Source: Bacteroidota bacterium
GTDB taxonomy: Bacteria; Bacteroidota; Bacteroidia; 2-12-FULL-35-15
Direction of reading: 5' to 3'
Length of the DNA: 50,514 nt
NCBI GenBank assembly: GCA_947466965.1
Contig: CANIFU010000015.1
Span: 1-50,514, forward strand
Under the pieces are notes generated by a model. It had not been told where the DNA came from. It searched no databases and was given only the letters and a program-made list of their open reading frames with translations. The number at the start of each line of letters is the position of its first letter. Position 1 is the first letter of the stretch. Position numbers and translations under genes: made by a program. Below, piece after piece: positions 37,682 to 49,570 of the stretch.

Positions 37682-38926
37682 TCACACCAAAAATTGCAAT
37701 AAATTAGTATTCTGATTCAAATATTCAAATTGAAATCCTGATCTTATTAAATTGTTTTTGAGTACATCGAGATCTTTGGGATTCTTGATCTCCAATCCTA
37801 CCAATGCGGGTCCGCTTTCTCGGTTATTTTTTTTTATATATTCAAAATGTACTATGTCATCCTCTAGCCCCAACACGTTGGAAACAAATTCTTTTAATGC
37901 ACCAGCACGTTGCGGAAAACGAATCACAAAAAAATGTTTGAACCCTTCATATTGCAGCGATCGTTCTCTAATCTCTTCCGTTCGCATAATATCATTGTTA
38001 CTTCCACTCACCACACAAATTACATTTTTATCTTTTAATTTTTCTCTTAAAAAATCCAATGCAGTAATTGTGAGTGCACCTGCTGGCTCTACAACTATTG
38101 CTTGCTGATTGTAGAGATTTAAAATAGTGGTACATACTTTCCCTTCAGGTACCAAAACAATTTCACTCAATCCTTCCTTGCAGATCGTAAATGTTTTATC
38201 ACCCACTTTTTTCACTGCTGCGCCATCCACAAATTTATCGATTGATGCTAACTCGGTATTTACTCCATTTCTTATTGAAACATACATAGACGGAGCGCCC
38301 TCCGGTTCTACACCTATTATTTTTGTGCCGGCGGAAGTATGTGAGAAATAACTGATTACACCTGCAGCCAATCCCCCACCTCCAATAGGAACAAGTACAT
38401 AATCGATTTTAAAATCAGCGTCTTCTATTATCTCTTTCGCTATAGTTGCTTGTCCTTCTATTACTTTTAAATCATCAAAAGGGTGAACGAAACTAGCAGC
38501 CTTGTCTTTGCAAAATTTAACTGCAGCACTATGTGCATCATCAAATGTATCACCTACTAATACTATATCTACATGTTCTTTCCCAAATAACTTCACCTGA
38601 TTTACTTTTTGTGATGGAGTTGTTGATGGCATAAATATAGTGCCTTTTATGTTTAACATTTTACAGGAATAAGCAACCCCTTGTGCATGATTTCCTGCAC
38701 TTGCACATACAATACCCTTTTGTTTTTCCTTTTCGGAAAGAGAAACAATTTTGTTATATGCCCCTCTAATTTTGTAGGAACGAACGATTTGTAAATCTTC
38801 CCGTTTTAGGTATACATTACAGCCATAGAATTCACTCAATTGTGCATTAAATTGCAAAGGAGTTCGTGTTGCTACGTGCTTTAAATTTTCTGCGGCTTTA
38901 TTTATAGCTGCTAATGGTCGTATCAT
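37682..38926 (-). CDS. ilvA: Threonine dehydratase (biosynthetic)
   Basis: Deaminates threonine to 2-oxobutanoate, the committed step of isoleucine synthesis. 414 residues. The fold-type II PLP domain (about 10-320) has the PLP lysine in RSYKIRGAYN, the CASAGNHAQGVAYSC loop and the GGGGLAAG phosphate-binding loop. A single ACT-like regulatory domain (about 330-414) begins at FKHFFVIRFPQRAGALKEF, so isoleucine feedback is plausible. It is the last gene of the ilv operon, overlapping ilvC by four bases (ATGA). Confidence 0.95.
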   Translation of the reverse strand: MIRPLAAINKAAENLKHVATRTPLQFNAQLSEFYGCNVYLKREDLQIVRSYKIRGAYNKIVSLSEKEKQKGIVCASAGNHAQGVAYSCKMLNIKGTIFMPSTTPSQKVNQVKLFGKEHVDIVLVGDTFDDAHSAAVKFCKDKAASFVHPFDDLKVIEGQATIAKEIIEDADFKIDYVLVPIGGGGLAAGVISYFSHTSAGTKIIGVEPEGAPSMYVSIRNGVNTELASIDKFVDGAAVKKVGDKTFTICKEGLSEIVLVPEGKVCTTILNLYNQQAIVVEPAGALTITALDFLREKLKDKNVICVVSGSNNDIMRTEEIRERSLQYEGFKHFFVIRFPQRAGALKEFVSNVLGLEDDIVHFEYIKKNNRESGPALVGLEIKNPKDLDVLKNNLIRSGFQFEYLNQNTNLLQFLV

Positions 38927-39960
38927 GGTCTTAGTTTTCTAACAGCTGCTCCCGCTTGCCATAATTCTGATTCTCTTATTTCTTTCAATTCTTTTTCTAA
39001 GTTTTCTCGGTACTCGGGTTTGCTGCCTTCAGCTATAACACGTTCAGCTTCTTTTCCCGAAGAAACGGCTTCATATATTTCTTTAAATACCGGTGTTGTT
39101 GCATTTCTGAATTTTATTTTCCAATCCAATGCTCCTCGTTGCGCTGTAACAGAAGTGTTTGCAAACATCCAATCCATTCCGTTTTCTGCTACAAGTGGCA
39201 TCAAGCTTTGTGTTAACTCTTCTACGGTTTCGTTGAATGCTTCGGAAGGTGAATGTCCTTTTTCACGCAACACACTATATTGAGCTTCAAATAATCCTGC
39301 CAATGCGCCCATTAAAATTCCCCGTTCACCGGTAAGATCCGAATACACCTCTTTCTTAAAATCTGTTTCAAATAAATATCCTGATCCAACTGCGATACCT
39401 AATGCGAGCACTCTGTATTTCGCTTTCCCAGTAGAATCTTGAAAAATAGCGTAGCTGGAGTTTAATCCTTTTCCCTCTAAAAATAATCGTCTTAATGATG
39501 TACCCGATCCTTTTGGTGCAACTAATATCACGTCCACATCTGCAGGTGGTACGATTCCTGTTTTTTCATGAAAAGTTATTCCGAAACCATGAGAAAAATA
39601 TAAGGCCTTGCCTGATGTAAGGTGTGGCTTTATCAATGGCCAGGTAGCAATTTGTCCTGCATCGGAAAGTAAATATTGTACAATGCTGGCGCGCTTTACT
39701 GCTTCCTCGATCTCAAACAAATTTTTGTTTTCTACCCAACCATCTGCTATTGCTTTATCCCAACTTTTACTTCCTTTCCGTTGACCAATAATCACATTGA
39801 TTCCGTTATCTTTTAAGTTCAATGACTGACCTGGTCCTTGAACTCCATAGCCGATCACGGCTACGGTCTCATTTTTTAATACTGCACGTGCCATTTCTAA
39901 TGTAAATTCTTCACGTGTTACTACGTTTTCTAAAACGCCTCCGAAATTAATCTGTGCCAT
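38923..39960 (-). CDS. ilvC: Ketol-acid reductoisomerase
   Basis: NAD(P)H- and Mg-dependent isomeroreductase common to valine, leucine and isoleucine synthesis. 345 residues, the short class I length. The Rossmann loop is GYGVQGPGQSLNLKDNG (about 38-54), followed by the IGQRKGSKSWDKA cofactor-selecting region, SHGFGITFHE, VAPKGSGTSLRRLF and the C-terminal knotted helical domain with DLTGERGILMGAL and ETVEELTQSLMP. It overlaps ilvA by four bases and follows ilvN by four. Confidence 0.95.
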   Translation of the reverse strand: MAQINFGGVLENVVTREEFTLEMARAVLKNETVAVIGYGVQGPGQSLNLKDNGINVIIGQRKGSKSWDKAIADGWVENKNLFEIEEAVKRASIVQYLLSDAGQIATWPLIKPHLTSGKALYFSHGFGITFHEKTGIVPPADVDVILVAPKGSGTSLRRLFLEGKGLNSSYAIFQDSTGKAKYRVLALGIAVGSGYLFETDFKKEVYSDLTGERGILMGALAGLFEAQYSVLREKGHSPSEAFNETVEELTQSLMPLVAENGMDWMFANTSVTAQRGALDWKIKFRNATTPVFKEIYEAVSSGKEAERVIAEGSKPEYRENLEKELKEIRESELWQAGAAVRKLRP

Positions 39961-39964
39961 AATT

Positions 39965-40522
39965 TTAATTGTAATTAAAGTGTTTAATTGTTTTTGTACT
40001 GTTATTTTCGATTTCTTTTAAATAGGTGTTCAATGTTTTCATCGGTTTAGTGATGGCTACTTTTCCACTGCGTGCAAATTCCAGCATTCCAAATTTTTCA
40101 AGTTCATTGAATAAACGGCTTATCTCTGGCTCTTCACCGGTTTTTTCTACCACAATATATTCTGATGATACACTAAGTATTGTTGCATGATTTTCTTTTA
40201 TCGTACGTGTGAAAAGTTCATTTTCTTTCAAGGCATCCCCAGAAACTTTGTAGAGCGCAATTTCTCTACTCACAATCTCTGGTGATTGATGATAAAATGC
40301 TTTTAATACTTCTATTTGTTTATCGATTTGTCCGACTAGTTTTTCAACAAGGTCTTTTGTTACATTTACCACAATCGTATATCTGTAAATACTTTTTACT
40401 TCGCTTACGCTCGCCGTTATACTTTCGATATTAATGTGTCGTCGTGTAAAAATGATTGTTATTCTGTTTAGTAATCCTATTCTATCTTCCGTAAAGATGG
40501 AAATGGTATATGTTGTTTTCAT
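39965..40522 (-). CDS. ilvN: Acetolactate synthase small (regulatory) subunit
   Basis: Regulatory partner of IlvB, 185 residues. The N-terminal ACT domain (about 1-80) starts TYTISIFTEDRIGLLNRITIIF and contains the RRHINIESITASVSE block that usually binds the feedback inhibitor valine. The C-terminal acetolactate-synthase small-subunit domain covers about 85-170. It lies four bases downstream of ilvB and four upstream of ilvC, in one transcript. Confidence 0.94.
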   Translation of the reverse strand: MKTTYTISIFTEDRIGLLNRITIIFTRRHINIESITASVSEVKSIYRYTIVVNVTKDLVEKLVGQIDKQIEVLKAFYHQSPEIVSREIALYKVSGDALKENELFTRTIKENHATILSVSSEYIVVEKTGEEPEISRLFNELEKFGMLEFARSGKVAITKPMKTLNTYLKEIENNSTKTIKHFNYN

Positions 40523-40526
40523 GTTT

Positions 40527-42236
40527 TTATTCTAATATTATTTCTGATACACTCGATCCGGTTGTTACCATCGGAAAAACATTTTCTTCATTTTCAACAA
40601 CTACCTCCAATAGAAAAGATTCTTTGCTGTTTAACATTTCTGATAATCCATTCTGTAGTGCATTTCGTTCCGTCACTTTTTTTCCTTGTATGCCATATCC
40701 TTTTGCGATGGTAATAAAATCAGGGTTTTTCATTTCTGTAAAAGAGTATCTTCTATCAAAAAACAATTGCTGCCATTGACGCACCATTCCTAAAAAATTA
40801 TTGTTCAGGATAAGTATCTTTACTGCGATATTACTTTGCATAATGGTTCCCAGTTCCTGTATGGTCATTTGAAATCCACCATCTCCCAACACTGCAATCA
40901 CTTGTTTGGTGGGCATCGCAACTTTTGCTCCGATGGCTGCTGGTAATCCAAATCCCATTGTTCCCAACCCTCCTGATGTTACAAAATGATTAGGCAGTTT
41001 GCATTTATAATAGCGGGATGTGACCATCTGATGTTGACCAACATCGGTTACTACCACCGCTTTTCCTTCGGTAAGCTTGTTCAATTTGTGGATAACTTCC
41101 GACATTAAAATATTTTTTGTGTTCGGCTGTATAGCATGTTTAATAACCTTATCATGCTCAATAGCATCACAGTATTTAAATTTTTCAATCCATGCTGAAT
41201 GATATTTATGTTCGATTAGGGGAAGTATGGCTTGCATCGATTCTTTTGCATCTCCAATTATAGCTACATCTGTAGGTACGATCTTGTTGACTTCTGAAGG
41301 ATCAATCTCAAAATGAATCACCTTTGCTTGCTTTGCATATTTTTCTAAATTGCCGGTTACACGGTCATCGAAGCGCATTCCGATTGCTATCAAAACATCG
41401 CAGGAATTGGTTAGTAAATTTGGTCCATAGTTTCCGTGCATTCCTAAATATCCTGCATACAAGAAATGATCCGGCGGAAATGCAGATAATCCTAAGAGGG
41501 TAGAGGCTACGGGTATTTTTCCTTTTTCTGCTACAGCCAATAATTCTTTTTCAGCTCCCGATAATAATACTCCGTGACCGCACAAAATAAAAGGGCGCGT
41601 TGCAGCATTTATGATTGCAGCCGCTTTTTTTATATCACCCTCTTTTACTTTTGCACTTGGAAAATAACTTCGGATACTTTCGCATTTTTTATAGTTGTAA
41701 ATGGTCTTTCCGAATTGAGCATCTTTCGTTATGTCAACTAACACAGGACCAGGTCTTCCGCTTGTTGCTATATAAAAAGCTTTCGCGATTGCTGGAGCGA
41801 TATCTTCCGCTTTTGTAACTTGTATATTCCATTTGGTAACTGGCATTGAAATACCTACTACATCTGTTTCCTGAAATGCATCTGTTCCTAGTAAGTGAGA
41901 TGCAACTTGTCCTGTGATACAAACAATCGGTGTTGAGTCGATTTGTGCATCCGCTATACCTGTTATTAAATTTGTAGCACCGGGTCCCGAAGTAGCAAAC
42001 ACAACTCCAGGTTTTCCTGATACACGGGAATATCCTTGTGCTGCATGTGTTGCACCCTGTTCATGTCTCACTAGATAATGATTTAGTTGCCCGGTGTAAT
42101 CATACAACGCATCGTAAACTGGCATAATCGCTCCACCAGGATAACCAAAAACAGTACTTACATTTTCATCCAGCAACGATAAAATCAATGCTTCGGCTCC
42201 GCTTACTTCTTGATTATCTTTTGTATGTTTTTTCAT
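40527..42236 (-). CDS. ilvB: Acetolactate synthase large (catalytic) subunit
   Basis: Thiamine-diphosphate enzyme forming acetolactate and acetohydroxybutyrate. 569 residues, full length. The N-terminal pyrimidine domain has GYPGGAIMPVYDAL and the catalytic glutamate in RHEQGATHAAQGYSR. The central FAD-binding domain follows, and the C-terminal domain has the GDGGFQMTIQEL...NNNF diphosphate motif. It is followed by its regulatory subunit after four bases and preceded by ilvD. Confidence 0.96.
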   Translation of the reverse strand: MKKHTKDNQEVSGAEALILSLLDENVSTVFGYPGGAIMPVYDALYDYTGQLNHYLVRHEQGATHAAQGYSRVSGKPGVVFATSGPGATNLITGIADAQIDSTPIVCITGQVASHLLGTDAFQETDVVGISMPVTKWNIQVTKAEDIAPAIAKAFYIATSGRPGPVLVDITKDAQFGKTIYNYKKCESIRSYFPSAKVKEGDIKKAAAIINAATRPFILCGHGVLLSGAEKELLAVAEKGKIPVASTLLGLSAFPPDHFLYAGYLGMHGNYGPNLLTNSCDVLIAIGMRFDDRVTGNLEKYAKQAKVIHFEIDPSEVNKIVPTDVAIIGDAKESMQAILPLIEHKYHSAWIEKFKYCDAIEHDKVIKHAIQPNTKNILMSEVIHKLNKLTEGKAVVVTDVGQHQMVTSRYYKCKLPNHFVTSGGLGTMGFGLPAAIGAKVAMPTKQVIAVLGDGGFQMTIQELGTIMQSNIAVKILILNNNFLGMVRQWQQLFFDRRYSFTEMKNPDFITIAKGYGIQGKKVTERNALQNGLSEMLNSKESFLLEVVVENEENVFPMVTTGSSVSEIILE

Positions 42237-42247
42237 TTTAAATTTTC

Positions 42248-43921
42248 CTATAGATCAGTTAAACATCCTGTGCTGGCTGAACTTACTTGCTTTGCATATT
42301 TATACAGTACTCCGTTCTTAACTTTTAATTCGGGCTGTTTCCATTTTTTTTTACGTTCTGCTAAATATGCATCTGTGAGTTCTACATTTATTTTATTATT
42401 AACCGCATCTATCTTTATCATATCTCCGTTTAATATGAAAGCAATTGGTCCTCCGTCAAATGCTTCCGGACTAACATGTCCAACTACAAATCCATGTGTT
42501 CCCCCCGAAAATCTACCGTCGGTAATCAATGCAACGCTATTTCCTAATCCTGCACCAATTAGTGCGGATGTTGGTTTTAACATCTCCGGCATTCCTGGGC
42601 CTCCTTTAGGCCCCTCATTGCGTATTACCAAAACATTGCCTGGTTTTACCTTGCCCAATCGAATTCCCTGTATACATTCAACTTCATTTTCAAAAACAAT
42701 TGCCGGACCGATGAATGTTTCACCTTCTTTGCCAGTTATTTTTGCAACGCATCCTTCCGGAGCGAGGTTGCCATACATCACTCTTAAATGTCCGCTGCTT
42801 TTTATAGGTGTCTCTGTTGGTAATATCACGGTTTGACCTGCCTTTAATTCTTTTACTTCAGAAAGATTTTCTGCTATTGTTTTTCCTGTTACTGTTAAGC
42901 ATTCACCATGTAATAATTTTTTTTCTAATAAGTAGTTCATTACCGATGGTATCCCACCTACAGCATATACATCTTCCATTAAATACTTTCCACTGGGTTT
43001 GAGGTCAGCCAATACTGGCGTTTTTTCATTGATGCGGCTTACGTCTTTTAAAGTAAAGTCAATGTTCGCTGTTTTTGCCATTGCCAATAAATGCAAAACC
43101 GCATTCGTAGAACCTCCTAATACGATTACTACTGTTAATGCATTTTCAAATGATTTTTTACTAAGGATGTCTGAAGGCTTTATATCTTTTTCAAGGAGTA
43201 CTTTTAAAAATTTACCTGCATCCAAACATTCTTCTTTTTTCTCTTTACTCATTGCCGGATTCGACGCGCTATATGGCAAACTTAATCCCAATGCTTCAAT
43301 TGCAGAGGACATGGTATTGGCTGTATACATTCCTCCGCAGGCACCTGCACCCGGACAAGCATTTTTTATGATACCTTTAAAATCATCATCGCTTATTTTA
43401 CCCGCATACTTTTCTCCCAGTGCTTCAAATGCTGAAACGATATTTAATTTTTTCTCCTTGTATTTTCCAGATGCAATCGTACCGCCATAAACCATTATCG
43501 ATGGACGATTTACTCGAATCATTGCCATAGTAACACCCGGCATATTTTTGTCGCATCCGGCTATAGTAATCAAACCATCATAATAATGAGCTGAAGTAAC
43601 AGCTTCAATAGAATCAGCTATTATCTCCCTTGAAACAAGAGAATAGCGCATGCCTTCCGTGCCATTGGTGATGCCATCACTGATCCCAATCGTGTTAAAT
43701 TGCAGTCCGACCATACCGCTTTTTTGTACTCCTTCTTTGACATGTTTTGAAAGCACATTCAAATGCATGTTGCACGTATTTCCTTCATACCAGGTTGATG
43801 CTATACCAACTTGTGCTTTTTTCATATCGTCATCTGTTAATCCAACACCATAGAGCATTGCTTGTGATGCTGGCTGCGACTCATCCTGAGTAACTGTTTT
43901 GCTGTATTTATTTAAATCCAT
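42248..43921 (-). CDS. ilvD: Dihydroxy-acid dehydratase
   Basis: Iron-sulfur dehydratase of valine and isoleucine synthesis. 557 residues, full length. Cluster cysteines are visible in [16 protein letters not shown] and [16 protein letters not shown]. The [14 protein letters not shown] block and the [19 protein letters not shown] region are also present. It lies two bases downstream of ilvE and 11 upstream of ilvB. Confidence 0.96.
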
Positions 43922-43923
43922 AT

Positions 43924-44814
43924 TTATACAAATGAAAAATTTCCATATTCATTAAAAGAGACTCTGCGAGTATATTTTGCTTGCAATACCGATCCAAGTG
44001 TTTCTTCCCATTTTAATTTAAAATTGACTCTGTCTAAAGATTGTATGCCTGCCACTTCTGCTGCTGTTCCTGTGAAAAATGCACTATCTGCTCCTTTTAC
44101 TTCTTCGGGTGTAAAATGTTTTTCTATTAATCTAAATCCTAACTCTTCACACAATTCAAACATTGTTGCTCGAGTAATACCTGGTAATATATTTCCTAAG
44201 GGGGAAGTGAAAAGTACTTCGTCTTTTTCAAAAAAGAAATTCGCTCCCGGACCTTCAGCTACAAAACCATTTGCATCCAATAGCAGTGCTTCATCATATC
44301 CTTTTTGTTTTGCTTCTGTTGTTGCTAAAATGGAGTTGACATAATGACCGGTTACTTTTGCTTCCACATGGCACGATTTAGGATTCGGACGTTGATAGGA
44401 TGAGGTCATTACATCTAGCAATTTTGTTCCTAAATATTTACCCCATTCCCATGCGCAAAGCATTACATGTACTTCATTTGTAGGTATTAGCGACATGTTA
44501 GCACCAGCAAATACTAAGGGGCGGATATACGCATTTCCTAAATTATTTTTCTCCAATAACTCATACGTGAATTTTGTAAATTCTTCAGCCGTATAGGGGA
44601 CTTTCAGATACATTTTTTCTGCGGAGTGCAATAAACGTTTGTAATGCTCCTCAGATTTGAAAACTTTTGTTCCATCAGGTGTTGCATATGATCTTATTCC
44701 TTCAAATACTCCGTTGCCGTAATGCATGGATTGTACATACGGACTAACCTGAAGGTCTTTTGCTTTCAGCCATTGTCCGTTAAAAAATACGAGTGTGTTG
44801 TCGTTGAAATACAT
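43924..44814 (-). CDS. ilvE: Branched-chain amino acid aminotransferase
   Basis: Class IV PLP aminotransferase for the last step of Val, Leu and Ile synthesis. I start it at ATG 44814 ([16 protein letters not shown]), giving 296 residues, the family length. The frame is also open upstream to 44892, but those 26 codons read straight through the terminator hairpin of the second attenuator and do not resemble the family. Motifs: [14 protein letters not shown] near the start, IRPLVFAG, the PLP lysine region [20 protein letters not shown], and [17 protein letters not shown]. It is the first structural gene of the ilv operon and directly follows the double attenuator. Confidence 0.93.
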
Positions 44815-44848: not shown

Positions 44849-44882
44849 AAAAAGCCCTTCACATTTTTGAGAAGGGCTTTTT
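44849..44882 (-). terminator. Attenuator terminator 2, just upstream of ilvE
   Basis: On the minus strand AAAAAGCCCTTC (44882-44871) pairs perfectly with GAAGGGCTTTTT (44860-44849) around a 10-base loop, followed by AATTTT. It lies 34 bases before the ilvE ATG and after leader peptide 2. Its 5' arm is shared with antiterminator 2. Confidence 0.85.
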
Positions 44883-44899
44883 TAAAAGTCACTTCTCAA
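44867..44899 (-). promoter_or_regulatory. Antiterminator 2 of the ilv leader
   Basis: On the minus strand TTGAGAAG (44899-44892), starting two bases after the leader-2 stop codon, is perfectly complementary to CTTCTCAA (44874-44867). The second segment is the inner part of terminator arm 44882-44871 plus its loop, so antiterminator and terminator exclude each other. A ribosome at the leader stop would cover the first arm and let the terminator form; a ribosome stalled earlier on the isoleucine codons would not. Confidence 0.75.
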
Positions 44900-44901
44900 C
44901 C

Positions 44902-44943
44902 CTAAGGATGAATAATGATGAATGAAATAATTGTTGTTTTCAT
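44902..44943 (-). CDS. ilv leader peptide 2 (isoleucine-rich, 13 aa)
   Basis: ATG at 44943-44941 encodes MKTTIISFIIIHP and a TAG stop at 44904-44902. Five of 13 residues are isoleucine, in runs of two and three, and two are threonine, the isoleucine precursor. The stop codon is placed two bases before the antiterminator arm. It shares the I-I-H-P end with leader peptide 1 and lies 87 bases upstream of the ilvE start. Too short for normal gene calling; the call rests on composition and on the coupled RNA structures. Confidence 0.8.
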   Translation of the reverse strand: MKTTIISFIIIHP

Positions 44944-44959
44944 AATTTATAAAATAAAA

Positions 44960-44986
44960 AAAGCCTTTCCGGTAAGGAAAGGCTTT
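44960..44986 (-). terminator. Attenuator terminator 1 in the ilv leader
   Basis: On the minus strand AAAGCCTTTCC (44986-44976) pairs perfectly with GGAAAGGCTTT (44970-44960) around a TTACC loop, followed by TTTTATTTTAT. It lies between leader peptides 1 and 2, and its 5' arm overlaps antiterminator 1. Confidence 0.85.
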
Positions 44987-45014
44987 CTATAAAATATAGT
45001 AATATCCTCTCCCT
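44974..45014 (-). promoter_or_regulatory. Antiterminator 1 of the ilv leader
   Basis: On the minus strand AGGGAGAGG (45014-45006), which begins with the last base of the leader-1 stop codon, can pair with CCTTTCCTT (44982-44974) over nine bases with two G-U pairs. The second segment is most of the terminator-1 5' arm and loop, so the two structures exclude each other. Confidence 0.7.
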
Positions 45015-45061
45015 TAAAGGGGGTGAATAATTACAATAATATATAAAGCTTGTTTTATCAT
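45014..45061 (-). CDS. ilv leader peptide 1 (Ile/Val/Leu-rich, 15 aa)
   Basis: ATG at 45061-45059 encodes MIKQALYIIVIIHPL, with a TAA stop at 45016-45014. Five isoleucines, one valine and two leucines make eight of 15 residues branched-chain, with an IIVII block. It starts 14 bases after the -7 promoter element, so the leader transcript would begin almost at the ATG. The antiterminator arm begins at its stop codon, as expected for ribosome-controlled attenuation. Confidence 0.8.
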   Translation of the reverse strand: MIKQALYIIVIIHPL

Positions 45062-45074
45062 TTTTTTAACGGAT

Positions 45075-45082
45075 CAAAAGTA
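45075..45082 (-). promoter_or_regulatory. -7 promoter element of the ilv operon
   Basis: On the minus strand this reads TACTTTTG, a full TAnnTTTG match. A TTG 23 bases upstream could be the -33 element. It precedes leader peptide 1, so both attenuators and all six ilv genes would be on one transcript. No other gene lies between it and ilvE. Confidence 0.65.
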
Positions 45083-45187
45083 TTTATTTTTAAATCAACT
45101 AAATTCAATAAAGAATTTAATTTTAGTAAGTCTGATTTAATTGTAATCTGTTTTTTATTTTATGCTAACGTCTTTTATTTTAGTTTA

Positions 45188-46240
45188 CTATTTAAAACTT
45201 GCTTGATTTTTATTGTTGAAAGGGTTGGGAGTCACAAATCGCAAAACAATTTCTAATCCTCCTTTATAGGAACTCGCTGTTTTTAATCCCGACATGTTTA
45301 CATCGTAACTTACACCTACGGCATAATTCGAGTATTCATAAAGTAGTGATGCTATAAGTGCGTCTTGTAAGCGATAATCTATTCCTAAAGAAAGTGCAGA
45401 ATTCTTTTTAATAGCTGTATATTTCGATCCTTCCTGAAATAGATATTTGAATACACTTCCCACAATCACTTCTTGTTGGGTTCCTTGTCGCACATATAAA
45501 AATTCGGGTGCGATCAACAGGTTTGTATTCTTTATCCCGAATTCAACAGTTCCTTGTGCAGTATATTTTGTATTCAGCTTTTCTCCGTTTTCTCCGTAAA
45601 ACGAATATTTTGGTAATCCGAAATGAAAAGCTGAAATACCAAACATAGCATGAACTCCATTGTTTGCAGAAATATATTGTTGGTCTTTTCCATATGCCCA
45701 TGCAATCCCTGCTCCCAAATCCGGATAAGTATAAGAGGTTACACCAGCCGTTTCTCCTGATGGAGCAGTTGCATCAAAAGCAGTTCCTACATACTGACTT
45801 TCCCATTGTAAGGCAGCGTAGTTAACTGTTCGTTGACCGTATCCACCCATGATCCCCATACCTAATTTACTGCGGTTGTTTAACTTTACAACTCCCGACA
45901 CATTTAATGAACCCAAATTATTTCCCATTTGAGAGTCACCTGCTTTATCTGATATCAATTGAATTCCCAAGCCAATGTAGCTGTCTTTGCTTTTTTTCTT
46001 AGCCGTATTCAACTCTGCCGATAATGCAAATGTTTTATAGGGTGATACAAAACTTCTCCATTGATCTTTGTAATTTAATACAATACGAAGATCCTTGTTT
46101 AGTGCTGTCATCCCTGGATTAATTGCCATAGGTGTTTCTCTGAACTGAGAGAAGTGATTGTCCTGCGCTTTCGTTTTTACATTGTAGAAAAAACTTATAC
46201 TCAAAATTAGAATGATTATTTTACTAGTTATATTTTTCAT
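45188..46240 (-). CDS. PorP/SprF-family type IX secretion outer-membrane protein
   Basis: A 350-residue outer-membrane beta-barrel protein. The signal peptide (about 1-25) ends KAQDNHFSQF, followed by the family start FRETPMAINPGMTALNKDLRIVLNYKDQW. The barrel includes GIQLISDKAGDSQMGNN, GMGIMGGYGQRT, VGVSYDVNMSGL and the end GGLEIVLRFVTPNPF. PorP/SprF proteins often sit beside, and are thought to help display, T9SS cargo with type B sorting domains. Exactly that arrangement is seen: its start is eight bases after the stop of the large type B cargo gene. Confidence 0.93.
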   Translation of the reverse strand: MKNITSKIIILILSISFFYNVKTKAQDNHFSQFRETPMAINPGMTALNKDLRIVLNYKDQWRSFVSPYKTFALSAELNTAKKKSKDSYIGLGIQLISDKAGDSQMGNNLGSLNVSGVVKLNNRSKLGMGIMGGYGQRTVNYAALQWESQYVGTAFDATAPSGETAGVTSYTYPDLGAGIAWAYGKDQQYISANNGVHAMFGISAFHFGLPKYSFYGENGEKLNTKYTAQGTVEFGIKNTNLLIAPEFLYVRQGTQQEVIVGSVFKYLFQEGSKYTAIKKNSALSLGIDYRLQDALIASLLYEYSNYAVGVSYDVNMSGLKTASSYKGGLEIVLRFVTPNPFNNKNQASFK

Positions 46241-49429: not shown

Positions 49430-49570
49430 ACTGCTGAATTTTTTTAATTAATTGAACTAAGAAAATTAATTATTTTCGCACTTGGTTATTTTATATTCTA
49501 AATATAATATAATGGCATTTGCAGGTTAGAAAATTAATCCATAATTTTAGTAAGTCTGAAATTGAAAAAT

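Follow-up and report, generated by a model that had tools for sequence, protein, structure and literature searches.

The ilv locus

The window (the whole 50,514-nt stretch of Bacteroidota DNA analysed) carries on its minus strand a leader flanked by a PorP/SprF-family gene on the 5' side and by ilvE on the 3' side, after which the genes follow in the order ilvE-ilvD-ilvB-ilvN-ilvC-ilvA. The ilv genes were identified with NCBIfam models; for each gene, one or more models scored above their curated cut-off. The features of the locus are:

45188-46240, same strand as the ilv leader: PorP/SprF-family (porP-like) gene, ending about 130 bp 5' of the first leader ATG (ATG 1)
43924..44811, minus strand: ilvE, branched-chain aminotransferase, at the head of the operon, ATG at 44811 (TIGR01122 and PRK06606 above cut-off)
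42248..43921, minus strand: ilvD
40527..42236, minus strand: ilvB, acetolactate synthase large subunit
39965..40522, minus strand: ilvN, acetolactate synthase small subunit
38923..39960, minus strand: ilvC
37682..38926, minus strand: ilvA, threonine ammonia-lyase

No match to leuA was found in the genome containing the window (95.6% complete), although its ilv genes are complete. This fits an operon for Ile and Val rather than one for Leu, and the organism may be able to synthesise Ile and Val but not Leu. In the same genome, hisG (G000:C1:63706-64162) was matched in two pieces that overlap, the first of them interrupted by stops, which is a frameshift or an assembly error, and no His-rich mini-ORF was found 5' of hisG in the 3.3 kb locus.

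Two attenuator cassettes in tandem

Ahead of ilvE lie two complete attenuator cassettes in tandem on the minus strand (45061-44952, then 44943-44845), and the leader comprises the following features, in the order of transcription:

45122..45135, minus strand: conserved element TCAGACTTACTAAA, candidate regulator site, 51-53 nt 5' of the ilv -7 box
45075..45082, minus strand: Bacteroidota-type -7 promoter box TACTTTTG (consensus TAnnTTTG), preceding cassette 1 and kept in close relatives
45014..45061, minus strand: leader peptide 1, MIKQALYIIVIIHPL then stop; the pattern LYIIVIIQT(L/P) is kept in tandem relatives
44999..45034, minus strand: competing 1:2 hairpin of cassette 1 (predicted), in which the antiterminator region pairs with Ile codons
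45006..45014, minus strand: antiterminator arm of cassette 1, AGGGAGAGG, its first base being the last base of the ORF 1 stop codon
44959..44987, minus strand: intrinsic terminator of cassette 1, GAAAGCCTTTCC-ttacc-GGAAAGGCTTTT, -16.7 kcal/mol, with a T tract 3'
44902..44943, minus strand: leader peptide 2, MKTTIISFIIIHP then stop; ATG at 44943, 15 nt past terminator 1
44889..44918, minus strand: competing 1:2 hairpin of cassette 2 (predicted)
44884..44899, minus strand: antiterminator arm of cassette 2, core TTGAGAAG, beginning two bases past the ORF 2 stop
44850..44881, minus strand: intrinsic terminator of cassette 2, -16.6 kcal/mol, with a T tract

A preliminary description of this DNA, which named no strand, had placed two complete tandem cassettes before the ilv operon, and all of the elements it named were present, including an Ile-rich mini-ORF in each cassette (45061-45014 and 44943-44902) and antiterminator arms starting at the stop codon (45014) or two bases after it (44899). 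It had also described perfect-stem terminators whose 5' arm is common to the antiterminator; the terminators and the common arm were recovered, but stem 2 is not one perfect long stem, having 11 perfect pairs under a 10-nt loop. The competing 1:2 hairpins of both cassettes were absent from that description and were found in the later analysis.

An intrinsic terminator with a T tract separates each leader ORF from the first gene (both about -16.6 kcal/mol), and in each cassette a mutually exclusive antiterminator shares the terminator's 5' arm and is positioned for switching between a stalled ribosome and one at the stop codon. Arm-terminator duplexes in the window had energies of -13.4 kcal/mol (cassette 1) and -13.1 kcal/mol (cassette 2), with z scores of -4.0 and -3.4 relative to shuffled sequences, and pairing weakened to -8.4 and -8.1 kcal/mol when the arms were swapped between cassettes. 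The 224-nt leader folded at -59.4 kcal/mol compared with -35.5 ± 4.2 kcal/mol in shuffles (z = -5.7).

Promoter box and conserved upstream element

In almost every close relative a TAnnTTTG box occurs shortly 5' of ATG 1, and transcription is predicted to start a few bases 5' of this ATG. The proposal of a single promoter followed by both cassettes held up, as TACTTTTG precedes cassette 1 and no promoter box was found between the two cassettes of the window. In a scan confined to the consensus, the stretches between cassettes were likewise free of a TAnnTT(T/G)G box in all 31 loci with at least two cassettes. The strict -7 pattern before cassette 1 was recognised in only 7 of these 31 loci, being rarely found outside the window's clade, so starts outside that clade were mostly not located. 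Given that no box lies between them, the cassettes should act in series. Moreover, the next ATG in multi-cassette loci often lies a mere 14-17 nt past the preceding terminator, which together with the lack of an internal box means that cassette 2 should exist only on transcripts that have passed cassette 1.

The upstream element TCAGACTTACTAAA has exactly two copies in the whole genome, both inside the window (45122-45135 and 49546-49559, each on the minus strand). The second copy lies about 11 nt 5' of the point where the gene for a conserved protein of about 506 aa begins (MKKNSNAF...), to which no Pfam family was assigned. Both placements were seen again in four relatives (L035, L037, L040 and L058), with spacing to the ilv -7 box fixed at 51-53 nt. 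The element looks like a candidate regulator site common to two neighbouring genes, and the regulator acting there could, as a guess, be the 506-aa protein.

Recurrence of cassettes and co-evolution of their arms

The detector sought complete cassettes by three features: a mini-ORF in which at least five of seven residues towards the end are Ile, Val or Leu; an intrinsic terminator no more than 130 nt away; and, close to the stop codon, an arm able to pair with that terminator's 5' arm. The counting thresholds were set once the first loci had been seen. The detector recovered 100 full cassettes in the 700 nt 5' of ilvE across 99 loci. The chance background consisted of the flanks of the same contigs plus the window (1.57 Mb of other sequence, both strands), and under the same thresholds none of its 1068 comparable mini-ORFs formed a full cassette, which excludes chance as the origin of those at ilvE.

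Over 98 distinct cassettes, arms paired with their own terminators at -14.9 kcal/mol on average, compared with -9.6 kcal/mol (s.d. 0.26; permutation z about -20) when arms were randomly re-paired with terminators. Own-terminator pairing this much stronger indicates that arm and terminator are evolving together, and in most of the tandem leaders compared each arm favours its own terminator. Arm cores are clade-specific but still complementary (GGGAGAGG/CCTTTCC, GGATGG/CCATCC, TTGATACAG/CTGTATCAA and GTGAGGCACT/AGTGCCTCAC). The re-pairing test took the place of column-by-column covariation, as the stems in alignments A1 and A2 are out of register owing to gaps. The preliminary description had suggested aligning the leaders of relatives as a check; compensatory arm changes in relatives were evident from re-pairing, and in codon counts Ile and Val predominate among the control codons of tandem loci.

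Distribution and evolution of tandem cassettes

Among 95 distinct ilvE leaders with enough 5' sequence, 14 had no recognised cassette, 50 had one, 30 had two and one had three, where overlapping mini-ORFs with one common terminator (L036, L057) were counted as a single cassette. The number of two-cassette loci is conservative, as cassette 2 of L033/L004 (terminator of -8.8 kcal/mol) escapes the detector, and so does cassette 1 of L067 (z of -1.1). Tandem cassettes are widespread in the phylum and not unique to the genome of the window: two-cassette leaders were found in its clade, Roseivirga, Tenacibaculum, Bizionia, Aureisphaera, other Flavobacteriaceae and a Crocinitomicaceae MAG, and in one genome outside its class (L112). 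Most ilvD-first operons in the class were without a cassette and a few had one, so tandem leaders belong, as far as sampled, to ilvE-first operons. In three ilvD-first operons (L207, L208 and L209) a single, separate branched-chain amino acid cassette stands 5' of ilvD; the peptides of these cassettes contain Leu (e.g. MYPLVILLSFIILIGFTK) and their stem differs (GTGCCTCAC).

On its well-supported branches, the IlvE tree requires the two-cassette state to have been gained or lost at least 10 times. Two cassette types recur in order, the first with a GCCTTTCC/GCCTTCC stem and the last with a GCCCTTCTCAC or CTGTATCAA stem, which suggests an old tandem from which one member was lost repeatedly, with parallel gains of the tandem still conceivable. 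Judging by near-identity of DNA, fresh cassette duplication also happens: L107 has three cassettes in series, of which the second and third (MKTNSNIIIISIIIRSFE, MKTNMNIIIISIIIRSFE) are nearly identical, as are the two cassettes of L138.

Proposed signal of the cassettes and alternative explanations

We assessed the codons that the leader ORFs present for control and found them rich in codons for the end products of the operon. Across 32 tandem loci, Ile accounted for 52% of control codons in first and 57% in last cassettes and Val for 22% and 19%, in agreement with the earlier claim that Ile (and Val) codons are read. Leu contributed 2% whether the cassette was first or last, and sensing of Leu by cassette 1, also claimed, was rejected on this count and because no leuA match makes Leu control unlikely. 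The idea that Thr codons make cassette 2 a sensor of the precursor fared no better: both Thr codons of the window lie upstream of the control codons, and Thr is not conserved at the N-termini of the corresponding peptides of relatives (MKISII, MRKKTI, MKNTIL, MKRKIQ). A further possibility is that the cassettes read different signals, for example Ile plus Val in cassette 1 and Ile only in cassette 2, forming an AND gate between amino acids. The control codons of the window differ in this manner (IIVII in cassette 1, III in cassette 2), and Salmonella mgtCBR provides a precedent for tandem leaders with two signals (PMC3641672). Such a gate nonetheless seems unlikely in view of the nearly equal composition of first and last cassettes over the 32 loci and the duplicated, near-identical cassettes of L107 and L138.

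Slightly less plausible still is that one cassette is functional and the other a decaying remnant, with cassette 1 kept and cassette 2 being lost in the window's clade. Close relatives with a single cassette retain the first type, and the terminator of cassette 2 is weakened to -8.8 kcal/mol in L004 and has mismatches in L009 and L010; cassette 2 is therefore not essential, and its loss may be in progress in this clade. Against its being a mere remnant, cassette 2 of the window is intact, with a terminator of -16.6 kcal/mol, its own matching arm and an Ile run, while ORF 2, arm and terminator are kept in L005 and L008, where the stems are stronger, and the clades of Roseivirga and of Tenacibaculum/Flavobacteriaceae keep the tandem stably. 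We give very little credence to the explanation that hairpin 1 belongs to the upstream porP-like gene as its ordinary terminator, or that both hairpins are constitutive terminators, and that the mini-ORFs are coincidental. This gene does end close to ATG 1 on the same strand, but a promoter box lies between it and hairpin 1. In addition, the mini-ORF and matching arm are kept while upstream neighbours differ between tandem clades, which argues that hairpin 1 is not simply their terminator, and the 1.57 Mb of control sequence held no such cassette.

Proposed mechanism and consequences of stacking

A single ilv transcript very probably carries two ribosome-mediated transcription attenuators that act in series, and the sequences lend good support to attenuation by charged tRNA-Ile (and tRNA-Val). 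RNA polymerase would start just 5' of leader ORF 1. With plentiful charged tRNA-Ile (and Val), the ribosome would reach the ORF 1 stop codon and cover the antiterminator arm, so that terminator 1 folds and the RNA ends at about 110 nt. When charged tRNA is scarce, the ribosome would stall on the Ile/Val codons; the arm, left free, would then pair with the terminator's 5' arm, and polymerase would read through. The polymerase would next meet cassette 2, which is independent and follows the same logic (terminated RNA of about 220 nt), and ilvE would be reached only by transcripts that pass both cassettes.

The geometry of the cassettes is consistent with this sequence of events. Arms start a median of 14 nt (IQR 9-15) past the first base of the last Ile/Val codon, and the edge of the ribosome footprint lies about 14 nt past the first base of the A-site codon. 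A ribosome stalled with the last control codon in its A site would thus leave the arm free, and one at the stop codon would cover it. At least 4 arm nucleotides were paired to the coding region in 94% of cassettes. The competing 1:2 hairpin is likely but unproven, given a moderate excess in stability over shuffles (mean z of -1.5). Apart from this protector hairpin, the leader has all of the sequence-testable features of the leader-peptide transcription attenuator class. The parts, their order, the specific pairing of arms, their conservation and the single promoter box can be read from the DNA, and from them we infer ribosome stalling and in vivo termination.

We used a toy model with assumed numbers (independent saturable cassettes, each with a readthrough probability of 0.1 to 0.8) to consider the benefit of repetition. 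The control range was 7.9-fold for one cassette, 63-fold for two and 500-fold for three, and basal leak fell tenfold with the second cassette. The steeper response once expected from two cassettes was hardly seen in the model, where the effective Hill number rose only from 1.0 to about 1.1 (1.2 with three). A large gain in range with a small gain in Hill number makes tighter shut-off and a wider range the likelier benefit, and on this model stacking would serve lower basal expression and a wider control range.

Same-signal cassettes repeated in series occur in about a third of the surveyed ilvE-type leaders, once in triplicate with near-identical copies. We consider it likely that same-signal serial stacking is a common, evolvable architecture in Bacteroidota, in which copy number (0 to 3), rising and falling in the course of evolution, would be a dial for leak and dynamic range; the one, two or three cassettes of relatives suggest that amino-acid control is tuned through how many copies of a classical RNA switch are stacked. 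These leaders form a natural series for testing what is gained from repetition (lower leak, wider range, noise) and in what way RNA switches duplicate and decay. They document ribosome-mediated ilv attenuation across a phylum for which little has been described of how amino-acid synthesis is regulated.

Comparison with known regulatory systems

In the textbook form of leader-peptide attenuation each operon has a single cassette, the leaders of enterobacterial ilvGMEDA and ilvBN being classical cases, and Lopatovskaya et al. reportedly surveyed attenuation in bacteria in 2010. Corynebacterium ilvBNC also has a classical leader-peptide attenuator (PMC11857589, PMC10272879). The cassettes described here resemble classical ilv attenuators in having a mini-ORF rich in branched-chain amino acids and an arm common to antiterminator and terminator, placed before ilv genes. 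They differ in that two or three stand in series, and in phylum, peptides and sequences.

An Rfam scan of the leader returned no family at gathering score and many chance matches at a lax threshold; a T-box or other Rfam leader was accordingly rejected, with Phe_leader reaching 35 bits on cassette 1 against a cut-off of 55. Tandem T-boxes and other tandem riboswitches are known, for which a digital, pseudo-cooperative response has been proposed, and like the ilv cassettes they repeat complete units of sensor plus terminator, T-boxes also reading tRNA charging (PMC12452182, PMC7583486). In those systems the RNA binds tRNA or ligand directly, whereas in the ilv cassettes the sensor would be the translating ribosome. 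Within the phylum, transcriptome data from Flavobacterium psychrophilum gave 'strong clues' for leader-peptide attenuation 5' of amino-acid operons, with no tandem arrangement described in the main text (PMC9723704), and the Bacteroid-trp motif (RF01692) was reported in a text that gives no mechanism for it in the part concerned (PMC2864571). The ermB leader, like the ilv tandem, contains two leader ORFs, but there control is translational and by antibiotic rather than by transcription attenuation in response to amino acid (PMC8274638).

Tandem use in Bacteroidota had been put forward as novel. This stands for tandem leader-peptide attenuators reading the same signal, of which no report was found in the literature searched (coverage incomplete), but not for tandem attenuators as such, which are known from Salmonella mgtCBR and were termed a singular example by its authors (PMC3641672). 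Both systems have two short ORFs and two attenuators per leader, and the 31 multi-cassette ilv loci match mgtCBR in having two complete attenuators per transcript with no internal promoter by consensus scan. Clear intrinsic terminators are not the rule in mgtCBR, whereas both ilv cassettes have them (PMC3641672). The mgtCBR leader reads two different signals, ATP and proline; the ilv cassettes, by the like codon make-up of first and last members, would both read Ile/Val, and precede a biosynthetic operon (PMC3641672).
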